Assembly (NCBI GenBank): GCA_028277515.1
Contig: JANQGC010000356.1
Span: 1 to 64,000, forward strand
Direction: 5' to 3'
Length of the DNA: 64,000 bases
Source of the DNA: Anaerolineae bacterium
GTDB lineage: Bacteria; Chloroflexota; Anaerolineae; Promineifilales; Promineifilaceae
The notes below the pieces were generated by a model, which made no database searches, was not told where the DNA came from, and was given only the letters and a program-made list of their open reading frames with translations. Positions 12,364 to 58,864 of this stretch are shown piece after piece. Both the position numbers and the translations under genes were made by a program. The stretch's first letter is position 1. Every line of letters begins with the position of its first letter.

Positions 12364-13563
12364 ATGCAGAATGGAGCTACAGAATTAGTTAAATCAATCC
12401 CGGACCAGGCCCATTTAAACCTTTTAGCCTCCCGCCTGCTTACCTGGTTGGTGGCTGATCTCAACCGCAGTGATGAAGCGGTTCCTGATTTCACGGAATC
12501 GCGCGCCCGTGCTTTGTTAAGAGCGTCTGATTTGATTGATGATCCGACGCGGCACAGTTTTGAGCGATTGTTATCGAACGAGCCGGCTCTGCGGGCTGCC
12601 TTGTTTGATTTACTCAAGGATAGTGAACTGGCTGAAGATGATGAGGTTGGTGCTCTCGCAGCGACAACGGCCGTGCGTGATATTGAGGAATCGTCACCAG
12701 ATGTAAACTGGCAGGCGCTTTCTATCGCCGCTTTTGCCTGGAAGAGCGGCTATCCGCTTTACCAGCTCGATCCGGCCTCTCCACCGGGAGCATACAGCCC
12801 GGCCGGACAGGTATTAAAGCAAGCAGCGAGTTTCATCCGCCAACAGGTTCAGCGGAGCGCGACCGAACGGGACAAATTAGGACGCAAACTGGCTTATGTG
12901 ACCGATGCTGCCGGCACGTCATCTTTGGATAATCTGGCGGGACAGCAACCTTCAGCGCCTTTGCCGCCCCATTATCGGCCGCCTATTCCGGTGAATTATC
13001 CGGAGGTTTCTTCGCAGACCATCCGGTTGGATGAATCTGAAGAGTCTCAACCACCGGAGATTATTCGGGGCGAACCGATTGTCATTACGTCAGAGGACCT
13101 GACATCACACGATCCCATACCGGAACGACAGGCTCCTATCCAGATTACACCTGAGCAAACCCAGCAATCTGCCCCGACGCGCGTGGTTACACCGAGCGCA
13201 ACGGTAGCATCAGGATCTTCTTTGGCCGCTTCCGTGCGCAAAAAATTCGCACGGTCTAAAGAGTCGATGAAAGTGACTAAACTGCGAGTGAAGGTCCAGG
13301 AATATCCTGACGGACCGGGCTTATACGGCCTGCAAGTGCGGGTGACCTGCCAGGGCATAAAAAGCCATGTCGCGGGAACAACGACCGAAGAAGGGATGTT
13401 TGTATGTGAGCTGCCTGTTCCGGAACACTCAGGGCTGACCTATGATGTGGATGTCACCTGGCCTCGCGAATTGAATAGTGAAATTGAACGAAAGTCGATC
13501 ACCTTAAACTCGGACCGCACGGCGTTTACCTTGCCTTTCTACCGGCATTTGAAGCCGGTATAA
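12364..13563 (+). CDS. Unknown protein with C-terminal Ig-like domain
   Basis: No family was recognised with confidence. The 399-residue product has a helical N-terminal region (residues 1-190), a proline-rich disordered middle (about 195-300), a short basic patch (VRKKFARSKESMK) and a beta-rich C-terminal module of about 95 residues with alternating strands, like an Ig or carboxypeptidase regulatory domain. No signal peptide or membrane segment is present. GAGGTG lies shortly before the ATG. It is 63 bases after the GTPase gene and 60 before the CAP gene, all on one strand, so a shared role with either is plausible. Confidence 0.72.
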   Translation: MQNGATELVKSIPDQAHLNLLASRLLTWLVADLNRSDEAVPDFTESRARALLRASDLIDDPTRHSFERLLSNEPALRAALFDLLKDSELAEDDEVGALAATTAVRDIEESSPDVNWQALSIAAFAWKSGYPLYQLDPASPPGAYSPAGQVLKQAASFIRQQVQRSATERDKLGRKLAYVTDAAGTSSLDNLAGQQPSAPLPPHYRPPIPVNYPEVSSQTIRLDESEESQPPEIIRGEPIVITSEDLTSHDPIPERQAPIQITPEQTQQSAPTRVVTPSATVASGSSLAASVRKKFARSKESMKVTKLRVKVQEYPDGPGLYGLQVRVTCQGIKSHVAGTTTEEGMFVCELPVPEHSGLTYDVDVTWPRELNSEIERKSITLNSDRTAFTLPFYRHLKPV

Positions 13564-13623: not shown

Positions 13624-14274
13624 ATGAGTGATCGTCTGAAGCTCACCGAAGAAGAAATCGATCGTGTCTTGGAACAGGTTCAGGAAACACCGCCAACCCC
13701 GGAAGTCCTGAGCATTAGCCTGGATGAGTTGGCTGAGGAGGTCCAGCCTCCGAGTCCAAGAACTTCGGCAATATTAAAAGTAACAGAGAGCGATCTCTCG
13801 CCGGTTGGCCCTCAATCTGCCACAGATCTGAATCTCACAGAATTGGAAACGCTGATGTTTGGCTTGGTGAACAGCGCCAGGCAAACGCATCTTCCCCGCT
13901 GGTTGGGTGGTCCCAATCTCCGATGGCATGATGGGCTGGCCCAGGTTGCGCGGGGTCATTCGGCGGATATGATCAAACGCCATTATGTAGAACATACATC
14001 CCCAGAGGGTGTCAAGGTTGCCCAGCGGATGGAGCGACAAGGTATTGGTTATTTAGCCTGCGGTGAAAATATCGGGGTTGTTTATGGCGCAGCCAGCCAC
14101 AGCGATCAAGGCATTATTGAAATTCATAAGGCCTTTATGAACCAGCCGCGCCGATTAACCAATCACCGGGGCAATTTATTAAATCCTATTTGGTCTCATG
14201 TGGGCATTGGAGTGGCTTATGATCCGGCCGGATCGTTGATCGTCACCCAAAATTTTATCGCCCAATATGGATGA
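13624..14274 (+). CDS. CAP-domain (SCP/PR-1-like) protein without signal peptide
   Basis: Residues 75-216 form a CAP domain: LVNSARQTHLPR, then the metal-site region GHSADMIKRHYVEHTSPEG with His112, CGENI with Glu148, and the closing HRGNLLNPIWSHVGIGVAY. CAP proteins are usually secreted, yet residues 1-70 here are acidic and helical (EEEIDRVLEQVQ) with no signal peptide or membrane anchor, so this one appears cytoplasmic. It sits between the GTPase/Ig-like genes and the E1 gene. A palindromic element follows in the 155-base gap. Confidence 0.85.
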   Translation: MSDRLKLTEEEIDRVLEQVQETPPTPEVLSISLDELAEEVQPPSPRTSAILKVTESDLSPVGPQSATDLNLTELETLMFGLVNSARQTHLPRWLGGPNLRWHDGLAQVARGHSADMIKRHYVEHTSPEGVKVAQRMERQGIGYLACGENIGVVYGAASHSDQGIIEIHKAFMNQPRRLTNHRGNLLNPIWSHVGIGVAYDPAGSLIVTQNFIAQYG

Positions 14275-14429: not shown

Positions 14430-15605
14430 ATGAGTGAAACAATAATTATTACTGATCCGGACAGCGATCGCTACCACACCTTCGGATATATTAGCTGGTG
14501 GCAGCAGGAAGTGGTTCGGAATTCCAAAGTTCTTGTTGTAGGCGCAGGGGCGCTCGGCAACGAGGTTCTAAAAAACCTGGCATTAATGGGAATTGGCAAT
14601 TTGTTGATTGCTGATTTTGATACGATTGAAGATAGTAATTTGAGCCGGTCCGTTCTGTTTAGAGAATCCGACAATGGGGCGCGGAAGGTGGATGCCGCCG
14701 CGCGTGGTGTTAAAAACCTGAATCCTGATGTTAAGGTCAAGTCCTGGCATGGAGATATAAATTTTGAGTTAGGTTTAGGTGTTTATCGCCATGTTGATGC
14801 AATTGTCGGTTGTTTAGATAATCGGGAGGCTCGATTGTCGATTAACCGCGCCAGTTGGGCGGTTGATCGTCCCTGGGTCGATGGGGCAATCCAGGAATTA
14901 ATGGGCATTGTGCGCGTGTTCTGGCCCGGTCAGGGCGCCTGTTATGAATGTACCCTGACGGACCATGATTATCAAATGATTGGACTGCGTTATTCCTGCC
15001 CCTTATTAGCGCGCGACAATTTATTAATGGGTAAGGTGGCTACCACACCGACCAGCGCTTCAATTGTCGCCGCTTTTCAAACCCAGGAGGCTTTGAAATT
15101 GATCCATGACATGGAAGTTCAACCAGGCAAGGCGATGATGATTAACGGGTTGACCAATGATGTATATACCACGGAATATCCGGTGAAGGATTTTTGTATG
15201 AGTCACTCCAAGCTCGATCCGATCATTGAGTTGCCCCAGGTCAGGTCGGATCAAACGACCATTGGTGAGCTATTGGAAATTGCCAGGGAACGACTTGGCC
15301 CGGAAGCTATGTTAGAATTTAATGGCGAACTGGTTGTGGCAATGCAGTGCATGGAATGTGGAAATGAAGAACTGGTATTCAAGAAAATGGCACGCTTGTA
15401 TGACAGCATGGCGATTTGCCCGGATTGTGGAGCGCGAAGAGAAATGGTGCTGACCCATCGTATCAGTGGTGAGGAGGATTTTCTCGACCGAACATTGGCG
15501 GAATTAGACATTCCACCCCTGGATATCATTCGCGCGCGAAAGGAGGAAGAAAGTCAATATTTGGAGATAACCGGCGATAAGGATTATTTCCTGAAATTTG
15601 AATGA
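14430..15605 (+). CDS. E1-like ubiquitin-activating enzyme with UFD-like tail
   Basis: The 391-residue protein is a ThiF/E1-superfamily adenylyltransferase. The ATP site VVGAGALGNEVLKNL (from residue 36), DFDTIEDSNLSR with Arg73, and CLDNREAR with Asp130 are all intact. CYEC (171-174) pairs with a later Cys pair for zinc. Cys190 in RYSCPLL falls where eukaryotic UBA3 has its thioester Cys, after a CFEC block. ATTPTSASIVAAFQTQEALK matches the E1 crossover-helix region. Residues about 275-391 hold TIGELLEIARERLG and TLAELDIPPLDIIRA, resembling the E1 ubiquitin-fold domain that recruits E2, with an inserted CMEC/CPDC zinc ribbon. It heads the conjugation gene set. Confidence 0.92.
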   Translation: MSETIIITDPDSDRYHTFGYISWWQQEVVRNSKVLVVGAGALGNEVLKNLALMGIGNLLIADFDTIEDSNLSRSVLFRESDNGARKVDAAARGVKNLNPDVKVKSWHGDINFELGLGVYRHVDAIVGCLDNREARLSINRASWAVDRPWVDGAIQELMGIVRVFWPGQGACYECTLTDHDYQMIGLRYSCPLLARDNLLMGKVATTPTSASIVAAFQTQEALKLIHDMEVQPGKAMMINGLTNDVYTTEYPVKDFCMSHSKLDPIIELPQVRSDQTTIGELLEIARERLGPEAMLEFNGELVVAMQCMECGNEELVFKKMARLYDSMAICPDCGARREMVLTHRISGEEDFLDRTLAELDIPPLDIIRARKEEESQYLEITGDKDYFLKFE

Positions 15606-15748
15606 GGTCAATCGGCCGTTCCGTTCATATGAGGGTTGGAAACAGAGAAAATCGCCCGGCGTACTTTTCTTAGAATTGCAACTAAAAATGGCAATATACG
15701 TAAATATTAGTGTAGATTTTATGACAATAAACCATGGAGGCTTATTAA

Positions 15749-16015
15749 ATGGCTAGCACAAAAGTAATTATTTATGATCCCACCGGCTCGAAGAAAACAC
15801 CGGTAGAACTACCGAACGATGTTCCTATGCGTCGTTTGATCCCGGCGTTAGTGAGCAAGATGGGCTTGCCTACCAGCCAGGGCGCAAACCCGATTACTTA
15901 CCGGCTCGATCATCGCGATTCCGGTAAGCGATTGGGAGATGATGAATCATTAGGTGATGCTGGGGTTAAAGAAGACGATATCTTGAGTCTTTTTCCTGAA
16001 GTCACTGCCGGCTAA
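15749..16015 (+). CDS. Ubiquitin-like protein (YukD/EsaB-type beta-grasp)
   Basis: An 88-residue protein with the beta-grasp pattern: strand STKVIIYDPTG, loop and helix PVELPNDVPMRRLIPALVSKMG, strand ITYRLDHRDSG, and LGDAGVKEDDILSLF at the end. This is the YukD/EsaB style of ubiquitin fold. It ends in FPEVTAG with the stop codon directly after Gly, so the C-terminal Gly needed for E1 activation is exposed without processing. It has Ala-Gly rather than Gly-Gly. GGAGG sits 9 bases before ATG. Position between E1 and E2 genes supports a role as the conjugated modifier. Confidence 0.9.
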   Translation: MASTKVIIYDPTGSKKTPVELPNDVPMRRLIPALVSKMGLPTSQGANPITYRLDHRDSGKRLGDDESLGDAGVKEDDILSLFPEVTAG

Positions 16016-16103
16016 AAAACCTTATTACCTGGGAACCTGAGGAAGGGGAACGACATTATTGAATGTTGTTGTCCTTCCTGCCGTTGTTCCCGGAGATGGA
16101 AAT

Positions 16104-16637
16104 ATGTCTTTTGATATTCGTGAAACTAGGCTGCGCAACGATTATGGGCGAATCCGCGATCTTGTCGATCGCAGTGATTTGATCCACGTGCGGGCGACGG
16201 AAAGCACTCCCCCGGAAAAATACTTGATCCGCTTTACCTGTAAAGGGGTGGAAAAAGTTTCACCTTCTGGGAGACCCGTTTATCGGGAGTCGCATGATGT
16301 AAGCGTTTATCTTCATGCAGAATATCCCTTAAAACAACCTCAGCTAAAATGGCTGACCCCCATTTTTCACCCCAACATCCATGTAACCGGTGCGGTTTGC
16401 ATTGGTGCCTGGTGGCCGGCCAAAACGTTGGACGAGCTGCTTTTGACATTGGGTGAAATGGTCCAATATAAAAATTTCGATCCCAAGGATCCTATGAATT
16501 CAAGGGCGGCTACCTGGGCGCTGAAAAATAAAAGCATATTCCCAATCGACCCACGGGATTTAAAAGGTCAGTCCCTCTCAAATCTGATTGTGATTGGAGA
16601 AGAGGAATCTGATGACCTCGGCATCAACATACTCTGA
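16104..16637 (+). CDS. E2-like ubiquitin-conjugating enzyme
   Basis: The 177-residue protein has a eukaryote-like UBC core. The HPN motif is FHPNI (His89-Pro90-Asn91), and the candidate catalytic Cys99 follows in TGAVCIG, the standard eight residues later. EYPLKQPQLKWLTPIFHP is the usual strand before HPN, and WWPAKTLDELLLTLGEMV matches the helix after the active site. The final helices (MNSRAATWALKNKSIFP) are also E2-like. The frame opens at a TTG at 16059, but ATG 16104 with GGAG upstream is preferred. It overlaps the next gene by 26 bases. Confidence 0.92.
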   Translation: MSFDIRETRLRNDYGRIRDLVDRSDLIHVRATESTPPEKYLIRFTCKGVEKVSPSGRPVYRESHDVSVYLHAEYPLKQPQLKWLTPIFHPNIHVTGAVCIGAWWPAKTLDELLLTLGEMVQYKNFDPKDPMNSRAATWALKNKSIFPIDPRDLKGQSLSNLIVIGEEESDDLGINIL

Positions 16638-17847
16638 GATAGAAGAATCAAAACCGGTAGAATTTGACCCTCAAAGATGGGCGACCATTAACAGCCACCT
16701 GGAGGCGTTGAATGCACTGCCGGCGGCCAAGCCCCTAAATTTGGATGAGAAATGCCTCTTCCACGGCCAAAAGGGGGAGGAAGACAATGTTGATGTGGTC
16801 CTTTCCCAGGTAGCAATCAAGCACATCGCGGCGCATAGTTACAGCAATGTACAGTGTGAGGTCGGCGGCGCCTTATTAGGCAAAGCGTACCGCAACGACG
16901 GCCGTTTCATTGTCAATGTCCAGGCTGCTATCCCAGCCGTGACCGCTGACCAGGGGCCGGTGCATTTTACCTTTACGGCCGATGCTTGGTCCCAATTGCA
17001 GCGGGATCGCCTGTCAGAATATCCTGACCTGGACATCGTTGGCTGGTTCCATACACATCCTGATTTAGGAGTTTTCTATTCCAGTGATGATGTCGTGGTC
17101 CATTCGGCCGCTTTCACCCAACCCTGGCATGTAGGCATGGTTATCGATCCCCTGCGCAAAGAAACAAGTTTCTTCGGCTGGATCGATGGCCAGCTTGAAG
17201 CTAAAAAGGGGTTTTACGAGAATCCTGATTTGCAACCTTATTCCCTGTTGGAGTGGCAGGCGGTGCAAACGGGTGTTTGGGATCATCCTTATGAAGAACT
17301 GGATGCTGAAGAACCTGCCTCAAGTACAGTTTATTTACATCCCAGCAACCGGCCAATGTTGCCTATGCTCAAACCTTATATCGGAATTGGAATCGGAATT
17401 TTTGGCTTGCTGTTGAGCGTCTTTTTGCTATTTGCCTGGGTATTACCCTTGACCCGACAGGTGGATCAACTGCAAACCATGACCCTTGTTCTGGCTGATT
17501 CGGCGCTGGCCGAATCCAATGCCGCGACATGCCCGGATGCCCGGTTGCGAATTTTGATGCCGCTCTCCGGCCAAAATATTCAAGCAGGCACGATTGCCGA
17601 AGTCATGGGCACAACCATGATTGAGGATGCGGTTCGCTACCAGGTGAACGTCAGGGCGCAGGGGGCTGACAATTGGGTGTTGCTGAACGCGAGCCGCCGC
17701 GACAGTAAATTGGGGCAACTGGCAAGTTGGGATACCAGTTCCACGCCGCCAGGGATTTATGAGATCCGGCTGACGGCCGTTGACAACAACAACATCCGCC
17801 TGCCCGGCTCACCGCCTTGCTCTATTGCTGTTGAATTGACGCCTTAG
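16612..17847 (+). CDS. Membrane-anchored JAMM/JAB isopeptidase
   Basis: This 411-residue protein has an N-terminal JAB1/MPN domain (about residues 60-210) with all zinc-site residues: Glu83 in CEVGGALLG, His147 and His149 in HTHPDLGVFYSSDD, Ser157 and Asp160. A single membrane helix follows at about 256-280 and then a beta-rich domain of about 115 residues with FlgD/Ig-like features (SGQNIQAGTIAEV, STPPGIYEIRL). If the JAB domain is cytosolic, the tail is outside. It probably removes the ubiquitin-like protein from targets at the membrane. ATG 16612 lies within the end of the E2 gene, preceded by GGAGAAGAGG, implying coupled translation. Confidence 0.9.
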   Translation: MTSASTYSEIEESKPVEFDPQRWATINSHLEALNALPAAKPLNLDEKCLFHGQKGEEDNVDVVLSQVAIKHIAAHSYSNVQCEVGGALLGKAYRNDGRFIVNVQAAIPAVTADQGPVHFTFTADAWSQLQRDRLSEYPDLDIVGWFHTHPDLGVFYSSDDVVVHSAAFTQPWHVGMVIDPLRKETSFFGWIDGQLEAKKGFYENPDLQPYSLLEWQAVQTGVWDHPYEELDAEEPASSTVYLHPSNRPMLPMLKPYIGIGIGIFGLLLSVFLLFAWVLPLTRQVDQLQTMTLVLADSALAESNAATCPDARLRILMPLSGQNIQAGTIAEVMGTTMIEDAVRYQVNVRAQGADNWVLLNASRRDSKLGQLASWDTSSTPPGIYEIRLTAVDNNNIRLPGSPPCSIAVELTP

Positions 17848-17870
17848 TGGTTTGTTCGCAACCTTAACTA

Positions 17871-17929
17871 GTGACAGTCACTTTATTACGAGTATTGCCC
17901 CCTAAATAATGGACCAAATTGACTGTCAC
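17871..17929. repeat. Palindromic element, family A copy 2
   Basis: A 59-base element starting GTGACAGTCACTTTATTA and ending TTGACTGTCAC. It matches the reverse complement of the element at 14310-14365 with a 3-base length difference in the centre. It lies between the two JAB genes, so the two copies bracket the E1-UBL-E2-JAB block in opposite orientations. Confidence 0.88.
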
Positions 17930-17987
17930 ATTACTTGAAAATCTTTTTTTCTTTGGGGCCATTACTTTTCTCCTTATTGATTAAATT

Positions 17988-19121
17988 ATGTCTGAACTTA
18001 ACGAGCAAACTTACGCAGCATTGATAACTTTATCCATTCCGGAAAAAGGGGAATCGACGACGGTTTCGGTCATGCTGCTGCCGGCCGATGTTGTGCCTCT
18101 AGAAGGGAACGCGAAATTGCTACGCGACTGCACGCTGGGTGATTTGCAGGCGTATGCTCAAGAGCTTGAGAAAGAAGTATGGGATGCCTATGAAGCCATT
18201 TCTCTGTTGGATTTGGAAGCGAATGATAATGTCGGCGTAGAGGTTACGTTGGGAATTGAAGATGATGAATCGGTTGGTTATTGGGATCAACAGATCTTAT
18301 TATTGCCACAGGGTGAAACGACATCGGAAGAAGTTGAGCAGTTGCCGGAAGATGTGCAGGAAGTCGTTGATGAGGAAGTGGAAAAGCACCCTTTCCAAAT
18401 CGATCAATCAACTTTGCCCCCGAATGTTGACGTCGTAGAAGACTATGAATTGGAGGATGATCCACCCGATGTTGCGGTTTCGGAAACGGAGCTGGTCTTT
18501 CCAGAAATTGAGGAAGAGATCGCGGACCCCGATCATTATGAGCCTTCGCCCGAACAGTTTGAGGAAGTACCGGATATCATTCCCAGCAAGGCTCGCGTGC
18601 GCGTGGCCGGGGAACGGCTTCCTATTGGCCATCCAACCTGGGCTGCGGTCGATATTTTGATCGATGAGCCTGCGCTGCGGGCCACCCAGGCTCATGCCCT
18701 AAGCAGCTTACAACGAGAAGTCGCCGGCGTGCTGGTGGGACGCCGGCCGGAGAAACAGCCGGACGGCCGATACCTGGTCCATATTTTCGATACGATCGTC
18801 GCCAGGCATACCGTCATGCAAGGGGCCAGTGTAACCTATACGCCCGAAAGCTGGCGCTATCTAAACGATACCTTGGCAGAGCGATATCCGGATGAAACGG
18901 CCGTGATGGTTGGTTGGTACCATACCCACCCCGGCTTTGGTATATTTTTATCGGGCATGGATCTGTTTATTCATCAAAATTTCTTTACTCAAATCTGGCA
19001 TGTGGCTATGGTGCTGGACCCGCGGGCGCGGACGAGTGGTTTCTTTTGTTGGGATCGGGGGAAAAGCCGGGTTAGCCGCTGTGATTTTGCCTGGCCGAAA
19101 TGGGCGGCAAAATCCTGGTAA
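17988..19121 (+). CDS. JAMM/JAB isopeptidase with acidic N-terminal region
   Basis: The 377-residue protein carries a C-terminal JAB domain (about residues 215-377) with Glu244 in REVAGVLVG and the motif HTHPGFGIFLSGMD giving His312, His314, Ser322 and Asp325. Residues 1-105 form a separate folded region not recognised, with CTLGDLQAYAQELEKEV as a possible helix, and 108-200 is a very acidic linker. There is no membrane segment, so it differs in location from the first JAB protein. The pair may split the work of removing the modifier from soluble and membrane targets. Confidence 0.88.
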   Translation: MSELNEQTYAALITLSIPEKGESTTVSVMLLPADVVPLEGNAKLLRDCTLGDLQAYAQELEKEVWDAYEAISLLDLEANDNVGVEVTLGIEDDESVGYWDQQILLLPQGETTSEEVEQLPEDVQEVVDEEVEKHPFQIDQSTLPPNVDVVEDYELEDDPPDVAVSETELVFPEIEEEIADPDHYEPSPEQFEEVPDIIPSKARVRVAGERLPIGHPTWAAVDILIDEPALRATQAHALSSLQREVAGVLVGRRPEKQPDGRYLVHIFDTIVARHTVMQGASVTYTPESWRYLNDTLAERYPDETAVMVGWYHTHPGFGIFLSGMDLFIHQNFFTQIWHVAMVLDPRARTSGFFCWDRGKSRVSRCDFAWPKWAAKSW

Positions 19122-19240
19122 ACGGTATATGATTGAACCATTGATTCTGCGACTGGAGGGCACGATCATCGTATTAAATATATAAGATAGATCGTAACTT
19201 TCTTGACCTTTTGGCCGTTCCGATTTACGCTTTAACTATC

Positions 19241-19672
19241 ATGGAAGAGCAAGAATTTCCACTTATTCAGATCACGGAAGATGACATCAATGAAGCGAAT
19301 CGCTTAAGCTTGCATTGTCCTATTTGCGCTGACGCGGTCGAGTCAAATAGAGATGGTGTCGCTTATCTACCGGTCGTTTGTGATAACTGCGGCACGCTTT
19401 ATCATAAGGCTTGTTGGGAGCAAAGCGGCGGTAAATGTGCGGTCTTAGGCTGTGAGCATGATGTTTATCACATTCATGGTCAAAACCTCGCGCCTGCTCT
19501 GAAGGTGGAATATCGTGATATTAAAGAGCCGGCAAAAAACGGCCGGGGGCCTAGTCAACGGACCAAGCGCCTTAAATATGAGCAGCAGCGTCAAGTTGAA
19601 CAGCTCAATCGACCCAGCTTGTTACAACGCTTGTGGCAGTGGCTTTTGAACCAGATCAGGATTCAAGAATAA
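19241..19672 (+). CDS. Small RING-like zinc finger protein (candidate E3)
   Basis: A 143-residue protein with a complete eight-ligand cross-brace pattern: Cys26-Cys29 (CPIC), Cys47-Cys50 (CDNC), His55-Cys58 (HKACW), Cys66 and Cys71 (CAVLGC). This is the prokaryotic RING family known from comparative genomics to travel with E1, E2 and JAB genes. The C-terminal half is basic and helical (KRLKYEQQRQVEQLNR) and ends in an amphipathic Trp-rich helix (LLQRLWQWLLNQI) that could touch membrane. The frame opens at TTG 19211; the first ATG is 19241. Neither has a clear Shine-Dalgarno site. Confidence 0.85.
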   Translation: MEEQEFPLIQITEDDINEANRLSLHCPICADAVESNRDGVAYLPVVCDNCGTLYHKACWEQSGGKCAVLGCEHDVYHIHGQNLAPALKVEYRDIKEPAKNGRGPSQRTKRLKYEQQRQVEQLNRPSLLQRLWQWLLNQIRIQE

Positions 19673-19742
19673 CCGTTTAGGCCATATTGTTTTCGGCCGG
19701 AGTTGTTGCCCCAGCTAACCATGATATAACTCCAGGATTCTC

Positions 19743-20261
19743 ATGCCTGCCCAATCATTTATCAGGCCAGTGTTAATAGATGAAGCATCCCCATTTTTTG
19801 GGGAATCTTGTGCGCTGTGTAAGGAATCATTTGCGGAAGGTGATGAATTAATTATTTGCCCGGAAGATGGCAGCCGCCATCACAATCATTGCTGGCGGGC
19901 TAACGGCAATAAATGTACGGCATATGGATGTTCGGGGGAAGGGGAAATTTTGCCGCGCAATGCTCGCCGGCAGAGACGACATCGTACACAAGTGATCATC
20001 CAGGAAGGCGGAGAGAGGCCACAATCCAAAGTGCGTACCATGCCCAGCAGCAATTTCGGTTGTGCCCAAACATGCCTGTTCATCAGTATCGCAATTGCTA
20101 TCGTCTTGATTGCCGCCGGCTGTTTTGGCATGTGGGCGGTGGCAGATTATATCCTGATTGAAGTCCTGGGCTGGCAGTATCGTTCCCCGTTCACTGGAGT
20201 GGCGCTCCCGGCAATTTTGCAGCTTGGAATACAAGATGCGCTGCTATTTCTTCTTTCCTAA
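19743..20261 (+). CDS. RING-like zinc finger protein with membrane helix
   Basis: A 172-residue protein whose N-terminal finger matches the preceding gene: Cys23-Cys26 (CALC), Cys39, His47-Cys50 (HNHCW), Cys58 and Cys63. The expected second Cys of the CxxC pair is Asp42 (CPED), which may still bind zinc. A basic stretch (RRQRRHRTQ) leads to a hydrophobic segment at about residues 110-135 and a second weaker one near the C terminus. This fits a membrane-tethered E3-like adaptor and pairs with the membrane-anchored JAB. It is the last gene of the co-directional set. Confidence 0.83.
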   Translation: MPAQSFIRPVLIDEASPFFGESCALCKESFAEGDELIICPEDGSRHHNHCWRANGNKCTAYGCSGEGEILPRNARRQRRHRTQVIIQEGGERPQSKVRTMPSSNFGCAQTCLFISIAIAIVLIAAGCFGMWAVADYILIEVLGWQYRSPFTGVALPAILQLGIQDALLFLLS

Positions 20262-20429: not shown

Positions 20430-21935
20430 ATGACTACGAAGTATGAAAAATTATTGGAAAAAGTCAAAGAGCTGGATGATTTGAACAAGGCCGTTTCAGT
20501 TCTGAATTGGGATAGGGAAGTCAATATGCCTAAAGCGGGAACAGCAACACGGGTGCAGCAGGTTACCACGCTTAGCCGGCTGACGCATGCCATGTTTACG
20601 ACTGATGAGATGGGAATATTGATTGAGCAGGCTGCCGCTGAGTTAAATGGGGCAGATTACGACAGTAATGAAGCAAGCATGATCCGCGTTTTACGCCGCT
20701 CATATTCTGACGCACGCAAATTGCCTCCGCAGTTCGTAGCCAGGGTAAGCGAAATCAGCGGGCTGGCCCACAAAGCCTGGATTCAAGCACGAAGAGATAA
20801 TGATTTTGCCGGTTACCAACCCTGGCTAGAAAAAATTGTGGATTTAGGTCAGGAAAAAGCGGAACTCCTGGGATATGAAGATGAAAAATATGACGCTTTG
20901 TTAGATCAGTACGAACAGGATATGAGTACGGCCGAAGTGCGGGCCACGTTTGCTGCTTTGAGAAAAGCTATGATTCCATTAAGGGAAGCGATTGAAGCGC
21001 GTGGCAAAGATATTGATGATAGCATGCTGCACCAATCTTTTCCTGTTGAAAAACAGAAAGCGTTTGCCCGCTACGTAGCTCCAAAAGTAGGTTACGATTT
21101 TTCCCGTGGACACTTGGGCACGGTGGTGCATCCTTTTGCTATCACCTTCGGCCGCAATGATTCACGGATTACCACGCGTTGGAATCCGAATTTCCTGAAA
21201 CCTTCCTTATTTGGCACGTTGCATGAGTCCGGACATGCGATATATGAACAGGGAACCGCTCCTGAATTAGAGCGGACACCATTAGCGAGGGGGACTTCGC
21301 TGGGGGTGCATGAATCTCAGTCGCGAATGATGGAAAATATTGTCGGCCGAAGCCGCGGTTTTTGGCAGATCCATTATCCCCAATTGCAGTCCACTTTCCC
21401 TGAACAGTTGGGCGCATATTCCGCTGAGGATTTCTACCAGGCGATCAACAGGGTTCAACCCACATTCATTCGTGTAGAAGCGGATGAGCTGACCTACAAT
21501 TTTCATGTTATTCTGCGTTTTGAATTAGAGCAGGATTTAATGAATGGCGATTTGGCGGTTAAGGATGTGCCGGAAGCGTGGAACAGTAAAATGGAGGAAC
21601 TCTTGGGCGTGGTTCCGCCAACGGACAGCCAGGGCTGTTTGCAGGATGTGCATTGGAGCCGGCCGATGTTCGGCTATTTCCCCACCTATGCGCTTGGCAA
21701 CCTGTATGCGGCACAGTTCTTTGAAACGGCCGTGGCCCAAGAACCTCAGATTGAGACTGAATTGGCCGTGGGCAAAACGAATGCGCTCCTGGCCTGGCTA
21801 AGGGAAAATATCCATCAACACGGCAAAAAATATACCCCACGCGAATTGGTGCAAAGAGTGACCGGGAGGCCCCTGGATCATGAACCATTCATGCGCTATG
21901 TGACGGCTAAATTCAGTGAAATTTATGAGCTTTAA
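20430..21935 (+). CDS. M32-family metallocarboxypeptidase
   Basis: The 501-residue product is a thermostable carboxypeptidase Taq-type enzyme that trims C-terminal residues from peptides in the cytosol. The zinc motif HESGH lies in GTLHESGHAIYEQG, with the third ligand in HESQSRMMEN shortly after. The N-terminal LNWDREVNMPK block and the PTFIRVEADELTYNFHVILR block are diagnostic of M32. The frame opens at TTG 20418; ATG 20430 with GGAG 8 bases upstream is chosen. Confidence 0.95.
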   Translation: MTTKYEKLLEKVKELDDLNKAVSVLNWDREVNMPKAGTATRVQQVTTLSRLTHAMFTTDEMGILIEQAAAELNGADYDSNEASMIRVLRRSYSDARKLPPQFVARVSEISGLAHKAWIQARRDNDFAGYQPWLEKIVDLGQEKAELLGYEDEKYDALLDQYEQDMSTAEVRATFAALRKAMIPLREAIEARGKDIDDSMLHQSFPVEKQKAFARYVAPKVGYDFSRGHLGTVVHPFAITFGRNDSRITTRWNPNFLKPSLFGTLHESGHAIYEQGTAPELERTPLARGTSLGVHESQSRMMENIVGRSRGFWQIHYPQLQSTFPEQLGAYSAEDFYQAINRVQPTFIRVEADELTYNFHVILRFELEQDLMNGDLAVKDVPEAWNSKMEELLGVVPPTDSQGCLQDVHWSRPMFGYFPTYALGNLYAAQFFETAVAQEPQIETELAVGKTNALLAWLRENIHQHGKKYTPRELVQRVTGRPLDHEPFMRYVTAKFSEIYEL

Positions 21936-48450: not shown

Positions 48451-50112
48451 TTAGAATCCCATTCCACCACCCATGCCGCCCATACCACCCATATCGGGGG
48501 CAGCAGGTGCCGGTGCTTCCTCTTCAGGAATATCGGTAACCAGGGCTTCTGTCGTCAAAATCATAGCCGCGATGCTGGCAGCGTTCTCTAATGCGCCTCG
48601 CGTAACTTTGGCCGGGTCGATGATTCCGACTGTAATCATGTTCTCGTATTCACCTGACAAGACATTGTAACCAATATAAGGATCGCCTTTCTCTTCCTGA
48701 GCGCGGCGAACATTCTGGATAATGACATCGCCGTTCTTGCCTGCGTTTTGGGCAATTTTGCGCATCGGCGCTTCCAAAGCCTGACGTAAAATGCCGACGC
48801 CGGTCGTGGGGTCGCCGGCGGCCACATCTACATCGTCCAATGCGGGCAGGGCATTAAGCAAGGCAACACCGCCACCGGGCACAATGCCTTCTTCTACGGC
48901 CGCGCGCGTGGCGCTCAAGGCATCTTCAACGCGATGTTTCTTTTCTTTCAGTTCCACCTCGGTTGCCGCACCGACACGAATAACGGCAACACCACCGGCT
49001 AATTTGGCCAATCGCTCTTGCAGTTTCTCGCGATCATAGTCAGATGTGCTGCGATCGATTTCGACTTTGATCTGCTCGACGCGAGCGCTGATTTGCCCTT
49101 CTTCGCCACGGCCGTCAACGACAGTGGTCTCATCTTTTGTGGAAACGATCTTGGCCGCTCGACCTAAGTCGCTCACTTGGACGCTGTCCAATTTACGGCC
49201 CATCTCTTCGGTAATGACCTGGCCGCCGGTCAAAGTAGCGATATCCTGCAACATAGCCTTACGGCGATCGCCGAAACCAGGAGCTTTGACAGCCAGCGCA
49301 TTGATCATACCACGCAGTTTGTTCAGAACGAGGGTAGCCAATGCTTCACCGTCGATATCTTCGGCGATGACAACCAGGTTTTTCTTGCCAATCTGGACTA
49401 ATTTCTCAAGAATGGGCACGATGTCCTGGGCGGAGCTGATTTTCTTATCATGAATGAGAATGTAGGCATCTTCAATCACCGCTTCCATGGCGTCTGAATC
49501 GGTGATGAAATAGGGGCTGATGTAGCCGCGGTCGAACTGCATACCTTCGACGTATTCAGTCTCAAATTCGAGGGCGCGTGATTCTTCAACCGTGATGACG
49601 CCGTCTTTACCGACTTTGTCCATCACTTCGGCGATGAGCCGGCCGATTTCCGGATCTTGGGCAGAGATGGAAGCGACAGAGGCGATTTCATCAAAGCTGT
49701 CGATAGCCACCGCCATGTCGCGAATTTTATTTGATAAGGCGTGTGTGGCGGCTTCGATACCCAATTTGAGCTGCATGGGATTGGCACCGGCGGCCACATT
49801 TTTCAGTCCTTCATGAACCATGTGTTGGGCCAGCACGGTGGCTGTGGTGGTTCCATCACCGGCGATATCATTGGTTTTAATAGCTGCTTCTTTGAATAAT
49901 TGAGCGCCCATGTTTTCGTATGGGTCTTCGAGTTCAATTTCTTTGGCGACGCTAACACCATCATGGGTGATCGTGGGCGCGCCCCACTTTTTGTCGATAG
50001 CAACATTGCGGCCTTTAGGGCCTAACGTAGTGGAAACGGCCGTTGCGACCGTGTCAATTCCTTTCTTTAACTTACGACGGGCGTCTTCTGAGAAAACAAG
50101 TTGTTTTGCCAT
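48451..50112 (-). CDS. groEL: 60 kDa chaperonin GroEL
   Basis: GroEL folds proteins in a double-ring cage with GroES. The 553-residue protein begins [19 protein letters not shown] and has [12 protein letters not shown], the conserved ATP-site DGTTT motif, [13 protein letters not shown], and the Gly-Met tail [12 protein letters not shown]. It is downstream of groES and controlled by two CIRCE sites. Confidence 0.99.
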
Positions 50113-57106: not shown

Positions 57107-57235
57107 ACAGTACAGTTATCTATTTCGCCGGCTATAATGAGTCCCAAGATCCATCCTCGAATAAGTTACTATGATTGAAAGTGGCAACCAAGCCCTTGTT
57201 TGGATATAATTTCGGATGGAACATATACCAGTTAT

Positions 57236-58864
57236 ATGACTTCAGATTTCCCCTTCATGCAGGAGATAGATGTGATTCAGGCTCAGACGCAGATGGCGGA
57301 ATACTGGGGAGAGCAGTTTTCCCTGAAAGATTCTGACATCGAGCAACTATATAACCATTTACTTGAGGTTGAAAAACCGCAAACCATTGAGGAGCTGACG
57401 GCTACCTTGATTCATAAACGGGTAGATGAAGAAATCCGTTCAATTAAACGGTCGGCAAAAGGCCATAAAATTTTCCAGCCGCAAAATGAATATGAGAAGG
57501 GAGACAAACTCCTTTTTCCCGCTATGGGTTTCAAGCGAGGCGTTGTTTCAGCTATCCGCGATGGCTTCAATCCAGATGAAGGCAATTTCAAAGTTGTTGC
57601 TGTAGATATTGACGAAAAGACGCGCGAATTCGCTTCGAGATATACCGCAGACCACATGCTGAATACAGATAATGGGGTTGAAATTCTTGATCTCTTCGAT
57701 TTAGACGCTGATGATTTGTTTAACAGATATGGTGCGTCCGTTGCTGAAAAGCTGGCCAGGCAACTCCATAAACATCCCGATTTTGTGGAAATCGGTTCAT
57801 TTTGGTTTGTCGAATCTTTGTTGGTTGAAGTTGACAAAGGTCATCTCCACCTTTCCGAGGCCATACTTGAGATGCATGAAGGAGGCCCTCTGCCGGCCAG
57901 AGAGATTTTGACACATCTCGATCTTGACCCGGCGATTAAGGAGGAAGTGCAACTCTTCTCCTTAAACAATGCCCTTCTGAAAGATAATCGTTTTGATAAT
58001 GTTGCTCCACAGGGACAGTTTTCCTGGTTTTTACACCGGTTGGAACCGGAGGAGGTTTTAAAGACCCCGGCGAGATTAGAATATGAACCCATTCCGGTGA
58101 ACAGGGATTTACTAGGACCGTTATTGTTGCAGTTAGAACATGAATTGGATGATGAATGGTCCGATCTAAAACCAAAAGCATTTCCTCCCGGCGAACCGGT
58201 ACAAGTTGTGCTGACATTCCCCCATCGCTGGGCGGGCACTTTGCCGCTCAATGCCAGCTTGCGCAACTTGTTTTCATCCGGCAGCGAAGCGCGAAAAAGA
58301 GTGGTTTTCGTCGATGATGAAACAGGGCAAGAAATTGTCGGTTGGGTGGTTCCCGATGATCGTTATATTTTCGGTTTTAGTGAATGGTTTGAAGCAAATG
58401 AGATCCCTGTCGGTGGATTCTTGCACCTCACTCCCAATTCAGAGCCTGGGAAAATTAATATCGGCTTTGACCGCAGACGGCCGCAGCGGGAATGGGTCCG
58501 GTTGGCCACTGTTACCGACAATAAACTCAGATTTGAATTGAAGCGACGGTCCGTGGGTTGCGGGTATGATGATTTACTCATTGTGGGCACCGAAGTATTG
58601 ACGGCCGTTGATGCACACTGGCGTCGAGTTGAGAACAGCGATCGTTCCTTGACTTCAATTATTGTTGAGGTTTTTCCTTCATTGGCTTCCCTCTCAACGC
58701 AAGACACGGTTCATGCAAAGACCATATACAGCGCCGTCAACATGCTGCGCCGCATGCCCCCTGGGCCGATTTTTGAAGTGCTGGTACGCAACCCGGCTTT
58801 TAAGACGGTCGGCGATCATTATTGGATTTTTGATAGCAGTCGCTGGCAAGAGCGATCTAAATAG
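57236..58864 (+). CDS. Hypothetical protein, about 542 aa
   Basis: No family is recognised. The N terminus has a helical region with EQLYNHLLEVEKPQTIEELT and a beta segment after NEYEKGDKLLFPAMGFKRGVV; the middle reads as a winged-helix-like LPAREILTHLDLD; the C-terminal half is beta-rich. No signal peptide or membrane span. It starts a three-gene unit with spacing of 14 bases and a one-base overlap. The frame opens at TTG 57200; ATG 57236 is chosen, 27 bases after a TATAAT box. Confidence 0.75.
   Translation: MTSDFPFMQEIDVIQAQTQMAEYWGEQFSLKDSDIEQLYNHLLEVEKPQTIEELTATLIHKRVDEEIRSIKRSAKGHKIFQPQNEYEKGDKLLFPAMGFKRGVVSAIRDGFNPDEGNFKVVAVDIDEKTREFASRYTADHMLNTDNGVEILDLFDLDADDLFNRYGASVAEKLARQLHKHPDFVEIGSFWFVESLLVEVDKGHLHLSEAILEMHEGGPLPAREILTHLDLDPAIKEEVQLFSLNNALLKDNRFDNVAPQGQFSWFLHRLEPEEVLKTPARLEYEPIPVNRDLLGPLLLQLEHELDDEWSDLKPKAFPPGEPVQVVLTFPHRWAGTLPLNASLRNLFSSGSEARKRVVFVDDETGQEIVGWVVPDDRYIFGFSEWFEANEIPVGGFLHLTPNSEPGKINIGFDRRRPQREWVRLATVTDNKLRFELKRRSVGCGYDDLLIVGTEVLTAVDAHWRRVENSDRSLTSIIVEVFPSLASLSTQDTVHAKTIYSAVNMLRRMPPGPIFEVLVRNPAFKTVGDHYWIFDSSRWQERSK

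Follow-up and report, generated by a model that had tools for sequence, protein, structure and literature searches.

Prokaryotic operons that join a YukD-type ubiquitin-like protein (Ubl) with E1, E2, JAB and RING components were reportedly predicted by Burroughs, Iyer and Aravind in 2011. A locus resembling them lies in the window analysed here, a stretch of 64,000 nucleotides from an Anaerolineae bacterium (contig JANQGC010000356.1, positions 1 to 64,000). As in those operons, a YukD-type Ubl, separate E1 and E2 proteins, JAB and Prok-RING_1 are found in one cluster. Parts of this set are shared with other described systems. In Caldiarchaeum, a cascade of E1, E2, srfp and Rpn11 was reconstituted, which resembles the present locus in its E1, E2, RING and JAMM proteins and whose precursor is trimmed by JAMM (PMC5654768). 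Bil likewise comprises Ubl, E1, E2 and JAB (PMC11354881), and E1, E2, JAB and Ubl themes recur in operons 6a-6e (PMC1779556). Among the bacterial Ubl systems met in the literature covered, those whose role has been tested, Bil and CBASS, serve defence; Bub has not been demonstrated to protect against phage (PMC13373217). No paper joining Promineifilum and ubiquitin was found in the open-access collection searched, 'ubiquitin-conjugating' appeared in none of the matches listed for Anaerolineae/Chloroflexota, and searches combining dynamin with Ubl terms gave no such operon in titles or abstract starts among the matches listed.

We propose that the locus encodes a eukaryote-like modifier system. 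The predicted targets are proteins at the cytoplasmic membrane, and the system probably controls a dynamin-family GTPase and a partner protein whose genes lie immediately upstream, a reading that we favour with slightly better than even confidence.

Results

Composition and extent of the locus

The initial annotation had described seven genes between 14430 and 20261, all of which are present on one strand at these coordinates. A significant Pfam match was obtained for every component that it named, namely E1, Ubl, E2, the JAMM/JAB pair and the RING pair (Table 1). Its interpretation as a membrane-linked subtype stood together with the component calls, but the extent had been understated: the unit reaches upstream to 9652 and includes three further genes. 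The E2 start was corrected from homologues, and the starts given for JAB1, which produces a 26-base overlap with the E2 end, and for RING1 are likely ones.

Table 1. Genes of the locus with their positions in the window, strand and domain match
Gene product	Position	Strand	Match
Dynamin-family GTPase, 882 aa	9652..12300	+	Pfam Dynamin_N 4.5e-13
DUF399 (our own label), GTPase partner	12364..13563	+	no Pfam match
CAP-domain protein	13624..14274	+	Pfam CAP 4.6e-13
E1-like activating enzyme, 391 aa	14430..15605	+	Pfam ThiF 2.5e-51
YukD-type Ubl, 88 aa, ending EVTAG	15749..16015	+	Pfam YukD 2.8e-11
E2 conjugating enzyme, 177 aa, HPN + C99	16104..16637	+	Pfam UQ_con 6.6e-14
JAB1: JAMM domain, TM-like segment (residues 250-268), then further domain (likely start)	16612..17847	+	Pfam JAB 2.3e-9
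JAB2: soluble JAMM protein, N-terminal extension	17988..19121	+	Pfam JAB 1.3e-8
RING1: soluble, N-terminal motif IxITxxDI (likely start)	19241..19672	+	Prok-RING_1 5.1e-9
RING2: RING protein with TM-like segments	19743..20261	+	Prok-RING_1 4.4e-10
TM, transmembrane.

Relatives were collected by scanning genome contigs with a 12-row E2 alignment, which gave 48 loci; 46 of these are titled Chloroflexota or subgroups, and two are more distant (Zipacnadia, Armatimonadetes). A protein search returned 384 E2 homologues, the best 120 of the 384 being listed. The gene order E1-Ubl-E2-JAB1-JAB2-RING1-(RING2) was kept in the Chloroflexota loci, many of which are cut by contig ends. Over the 48 loci and the window, 49 genes were counted for Ubl, 49 for E2, 47 for JAB1, 43 for E1, 42 for JAB2, 34 for RING1, 26 for RING2, 26 for DUF399, 21 for the GTPase and 16 for CAP, including a weak one of 22 bits in L036. 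Of the 33 loci having RING1, 9 showed no recognisable separate RING2.

Conservation of the conjugation proteins

The key residues that had been assigned to each protein are kept across the aligned relatives. Counts of conserved residues refer to aligned rows, leaving out those cut by contig ends, except for the JAMM motif, where such rows were included. In E2, H89-P90-N91 and C99 were found in 48/48 rows, as were Y74, P75 and P79 within a YPLKxP stretch that resembles the canonical YPFKPP. The WPA loop was mostly kept, with P105 in 39/48 rows and Ala in 9, and the closest solved sequence by profile was E2-24 kDa (1fxt, 1.8e-11). C190 of E1 was invariant (41/41). All eight ligands of RING1 were present in 34/34 rows and those of RING2 in 24/24, the fourth ligand of the latter being Asp in 22 and Cys in 2. 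The JAMM motif HxHP..S..D was complete in 47/47 JAB1 and in 37/42 JAB2 rows, all five misses being contig-cut or frame-broken rows. A hydropathy scan detected a TM-like segment in 41/42 JAB1 and 24/24 RING2, compared to 2/37 JAB2 and 0/34 RING1. Each pair therefore consists of one soluble and one membrane form, which bears out the pairing noticed at first.

E1 (model with a predicted local distance difference test, pLDDT, of 83.5) has a C-terminal domain at the position of the ubiquitin-fold domain (UFD), with a zinc-ribbon insert. In VIA, some SAE2, UBA7, UBA3, UBA6 and UBA1 rows aligned 280-299 residues with E1, reaching 380-383, and other rows of the same enzymes aligned about 200-215 residues, ending near 255-263 like MoeB/ThiF. 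A sequence search of the C-terminal domain alone against the PDB gave no UFD match. The nearest relative of E1 varied with the method: ThiF came first in Foldseek, MoeB and SAE2 tied by Z score, and UBA7/UBA1 came first by sequence. We therefore make no claim that this E1 is nearest to the eukaryotic enzymes. The CYEC pair (C171, C174) and the zinc-ribbon cysteines were lost together in several E1s, for example in L021, L030 and L034, so these branches can apparently do without metal binding.

All 48 loci encode a Ubl with a TAG end, which in four of them (L024, L031, L036, L046) is followed by 1-5 further residues. If TAG is the active end, these extra residues would need to be trimmed. A fixed TAG end with occasional tails would be the pattern expected of a processed modifier. 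The Ubl is also the most conserved protein of the locus. In the 8 loci (window included) that hold all compared genes, its mean pairwise identity was 0.943, followed by E1 (0.797), GTPase (0.786), E2 (0.779), RING1 (0.619), JAB2 (0.561), DUF399 (0.538), RING2 (0.518) and JAB1 (0.479); the flanking controls, an M32 carboxypeptidase and a CNNM/CBS protein, reached 0.719 and 0.597, respectively.

The GTPase and DUF399 upstream of E1

GTPase and DUF399, with CAP in a subset, precede E1 in the window and in 20/48 loci; where the contig extends 5 kb or more ahead of E1, this holds for 17 of 26. The P-loop K/S and the D/G of DVPG were present in 19/19 GTPases, and Dynamin_N, P-loop and DxxG, which define the dynamin superfamily, were all found; a TM-like segment was seen in none of the 19. 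The AlphaFold2 model of DUF399 (pLDDT 77.5, predicted template modelling score 0.47) comprises a helical N-domain, a disordered linker and a transthyretin/CnaB-like C-domain, for which Foldseek returned HIU hydrolase as best match (E 1.9e-4), then CnaB and transthyretin folds, over about 100 residues. For the helical N-domain no fold was found by Foldseek among the best 50 matches listed. The CAP protein had a TM-like segment in 0/15 cases, and its N-terminal tail bears a repeated short motif.

A full-length GTPase (62-87% identity) was present in 30 of the 36 holder genomes searched, and one more had a 24-bit match only; G035 and G036 contained no full-length GTPase. The neighbourhood was examined for 15 GTPases encoded either on a different contig from the Ubl genes or at a long distance from them, and for one distant homologue. 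In 11 of the 15, DUF399 followed downstream on the same strand at 37 to 1925 bases, with at most short open reading frames (ORFs) between; for the other four, the contig ends on the side where DUF399 would be expected. The G022 case among the 11 is probably a contig break inside an intact arrangement, as L092 ends and L030 begins within DUF399. In one of the four, G198, DUF399 adjoins E1 on another contig (L011), so the GTPase-DUF399 pair seems to be apart there, an apparent exception.

Six loci lacked E1, and a search of these six genomes recovered a full E1 in each. A contig break can explain the absence in G014, G030 and G032, and E1 is truly elsewhere in G025, G026 and G034. In G025, E1, CAP, DUF399 and GTPase lie within 9 kb, about 27 kb from Ubl and E2, and in G034 the E1 unlinked to Ubl-E2 stands beside DUF399. 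The locus thus breaks at differing points, and E1, DUF399 and GTPase tend to stay paired, though not strictly.

A peptide shared by RING1, CAP and DUF399

The IxITxxDI peptide was scored as [ILV]x[ILV][TS]xx[DE][ILV] with contig-cut rows left out. The pattern occurred in 34/34 RING1, 14/15 CAP (two or three copies each) and 21/23 DUF399 proteins, against shuffled-sequence means of 0.4, 0.4 and 1.1. Expressed per 1000 aa, its frequency was 8.3 in RING1, 10.1 in CAP and 2.8 in DUF399, whereas two sets of neighbouring genes, 222 unlabelled and 55 labelled ones, gave 0.26 and 0.37, respectively. With its likeness to a hydrophobic strand followed by acidic residues, the peptide is reminiscent of SUMO-interacting motifs. 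JAB2 was considered as a further carrier and rejected: the initial 29/37 hits were mostly the JAMM stretch itself, and 6/37 were left once JAMM was removed. Judged by eye only, the stretches ISILDEP and DISFLGE in the GTPase linker also look like SUMO-interacting motifs.

Distribution among genomes

In the class of G001 (249 genomes), E2 matches were found in 25 genomes, 14 of this family (>300 bits) and 11 distant (44-152 bits). The GTPase was found in 15 at E <= 1e-20; its score exceeded 1000 bits in 14 and was 84 bits in the remaining one. These 14 genomes are identical to the 14 with the family E2. Among 301 genomes of the phylum, two carry the E2 and the GTPase occurs in these same two, while nine others have distant E2s only. 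Among the 56 genomes of the order, the family E2 was present in 47, with a distant E2 in one more, and the GTPase in 48, six of these as fragments (G548, G549, G551, G558, G559, G560); 43 genomes held both and 4 neither.

Several observations weigh against the proposed link between the modifier and the GTPase, and against parts of the conjugation scheme. In the order, 4 genomes have E2 only and 5 have GTPase only. Three of the four E2-only genomes (G030-G032) form a divergent E1/E2 branch, in which the GTPase therefore seems dispensable. Presence and absence follow one clade, so that the co-occurrence reflects few independent events, and the distribution may largely be one clade's shared content. 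In L011 (G198) and L038 (G559) DUF399 adjoins E1, but the place upstream of DUF399 is taken by genes other than the GTPase, and around the unlinked E1 of G026 the available sequence, roughly 1.5 kb per side, contained no DUF399. The shared peptide did not extend to JAB2 (6/34, shuffled mean 1.6). As to the chemistry, the Ubl terminus is a single Gly (AG), not GG, and RING1 has no conserved Arg/Lys after the last zinc ligand, a position that matters in the Caldiarchaeum RING (PMC5654768).

The order-wide counts, and the many genomes in which the GTPase-DUF399 pair is separated from the Ubl genes, would also fit an arrangement by synteny only, in which GTPase-DUF399 is an unrelated clade-specific module that came to lie upstream by chance. 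We regard this as rather doubtful, since two of the three genomes with a split locus (G025, G034) keep E1 together with DUF399, DUF399 stays with E1 even without the GTPase in L011 and L038, and RING1, DUF399 and CAP carry a common motif. Moreover, E1 is retained on the contig of a GTPase match in G552 and G549, which belong to the five genomes with GTPase only; in G552 the contig begins 409 bases from E1, so that the other genes may be missing through truncation.

Profile matches also led us to consider an anti-phage system of the Bil, Bub or CBASS-conjugation kind, in which the GTPase would act as a Leo-type dynamin effector. PADLOC E1-E2 models matched E1 (best 61.5 bits), JAB models matched JAB1 (31 bits), LeoA/LeoBC models matched the GTPase weakly (34 and 29 bits), and the NCBIfam anti-phage 6A-MBL model matched E1 at 40.6 bits, against a cut-off of 320. 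Ubl conjugation is moreover used by Bil (PMC11354881) and by CBASS (PMC10449767). However, Ubl, E2, RING2, DUF399 and CAP had no PADLOC match at the thresholds used, and none of the 52 stretches on viral contigs that matched a search pattern encoded a relative. The family E2, in those 47 genomes of the order, gave one match each (G009 has a second at 44 bits), the Ubl is conserved far above the flanking genes, and flanking chromosomal genes recur in some loci. In view of these features a defence role is unlikely, and the distribution resembles that of a resident system more than that of a defence island.

The modifier might also be a degradation tag feeding the proteasome or an AAA+ protease, as an Rpn11-type JAMM protease is encoded next to the operon of the archaeal relative (PMC5654768). 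PF00227 (proteasome) was over cut-off in 12 of the 249 class genomes but in none of the 14 holders, with Clp, FtsH and Lon routes not searched, and we judge such a tag improbable, slightly more so than defence. Finally, membership of the Ubl in the YukD family and WXG100 genes in 4 of the 14 holders could point to an accessory of type VII secretion, YukD proper. This is barely credible: WXG100 is absent from the other 10 holders and from the ten window proteins scanned with Pfam, 12 of the 14 holders have a single YukD, and in the two holders with a second one it is this second YukD, not the Ubl, that adjoins WXG100 on another contig (G011 C105, G025 C85).

In summary, the conservation of the Ubl, the lack of a proteasome match and of a viral relative in these searches, and the absence of WXG100 from 10 of the 14 holders favour a resident, membrane-linked system over defence, type VII secretion and proteasome tagging.

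Other features of the window and the class

The palindrome GTGACNGTCAC / GTGACWGTCAC occurs thrice (14310, 14355, 17871), in the 64 kb only at the operon, and in its 14-base form with up to 1 mismatch gave 6 strand hits against 0.01 expected. It was considered as an operator and dropped: it was found in 0/48 related loci and is therefore not a conserved regulator site. The M32 carboxypeptidase gene (20430-21935, Peptidase_M32 1.6e-183) follows the operon in the window and in 12/48 loci, with intervening genes in some and a weak match only in L046; that a C-terminal exopeptidase should neighbour a modifier gene may be fortuitous. Elsewhere in the window, a Cpn60/TCP-1 family chaperonin of 553 aa is encoded at 48451-50112 on the - strand (1.3e-71), and a 554-aa ORF at 57200-58864 had no Pfam match at 0.001.

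A second Ubl system was seen in other genomes of the class (L071-L077, e.g. L074:6027-12502), with E1 in a longer frame, a Ubl-E2 fusion, a stand-alone Ubl and JAB. By Pfam, a GntR DNA-binding domain is fused to E1 in L074, which is striking, and this locus also encodes FHA and VWA proteins and a 289-aa protein with a C-terminal RING. L077 showed a weak FHA match on one JAB.

Discussion

Proposed mechanism

The observations are those of gene content, gene order, conserved residues and co-occurrence; from these we infer the individual chemical steps, the substrates and the cell-biological role. A JAMM protease would trim the few Ubl precursors with extra residues and expose the ...TAG end. E1 would then adenylate the terminal Gly and carry the Ubl on C190, and its C-terminal domain would hand the Ubl to C99 of E2. 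The soluble RING1 and the membrane-borne RING2 are predicted to release the Ubl onto substrates, from which JAB1 at the membrane and JAB2 in soluble form would take it off. GTPase and DUF399 are the putative main client or effector, and the conserved IxITxxDI motifs of RING1, DUF399 and CAP may serve to dock a common partner, which might be the Ubl itself.

More tentatively, and as a possibility that we would not yet back, reversible tagging at the membrane, written by the membrane RING and erased by the membrane JAMM, might switch the GTPase and its DUF399 adaptor and so drive membrane remodelling or septation, with the IxITxxDI peptides as readers. If true, ubiquitin-style control of membrane machines, typically thought of as eukaryotic, would exist in bacteria too. 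The near order-wide, highly conserved E1-E2-RING-JAMM system with its probable tie to a dynamin offers a compact gene set for testing such control.

Relation to known systems

The architecture of the locus differs from that of both Bil and operons 6a-6e. Bil has a tandem Ubl, BilA, a CEHH-type E2, and an E1 that combines an inactive adenylation domain with an active one and a Cys domain (PMC11354881), whereas here we found a single 88-aa Ubl, one ThiF domain in an E1 of 391 aa, and an HPN-type E2 with no Glu/His set after C99 in the alignment. Operons 6a-6c encode multidomain E2-E1 proteins, which are separate here; the E2 of 6d operons lacks the classical His, which as H89 is kept in this family; and the tandem polyUbl repeats of 6e operons have no counterpart (PMC1779556). 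The Caldiarchaeum system is archaeal and has a di-Gly end; the text consulted names a single RING and JAMM and mentions no GTPase (PMC5654768).

The two distant loci from Zipacnadia and Armatimonadetes (L047:1088-7383, L048:1482-6258) share with the window a Ubl ending in ITAG, E1, E2, a JAB with a TM-like segment and, in L047, RING. They differ in that E2 and Ubl are separated by a gene for a trypsin-like protease, assigned by Pfam in L047, whereas in L048 a similar ORF is recognised by position and look. L047 also has a second E2 and a JAB-TM-LysM protein, and no full-length GTPase was found in the genomes G035 and G036. Their gene content again has an envelope link.

Compared with the YukD/E1/E2/JAB/RING operons, the present locus has doubled JAB and RING, membrane and soluble forms and a TAG end; those operons are not known to have a dynamin GTPase/DUF399/CAP module. 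By its gene content, the locus belongs to this broad kind, known in outline, and its new features are the GTPase module, the pairing of membrane and soluble forms, and the TAG end.

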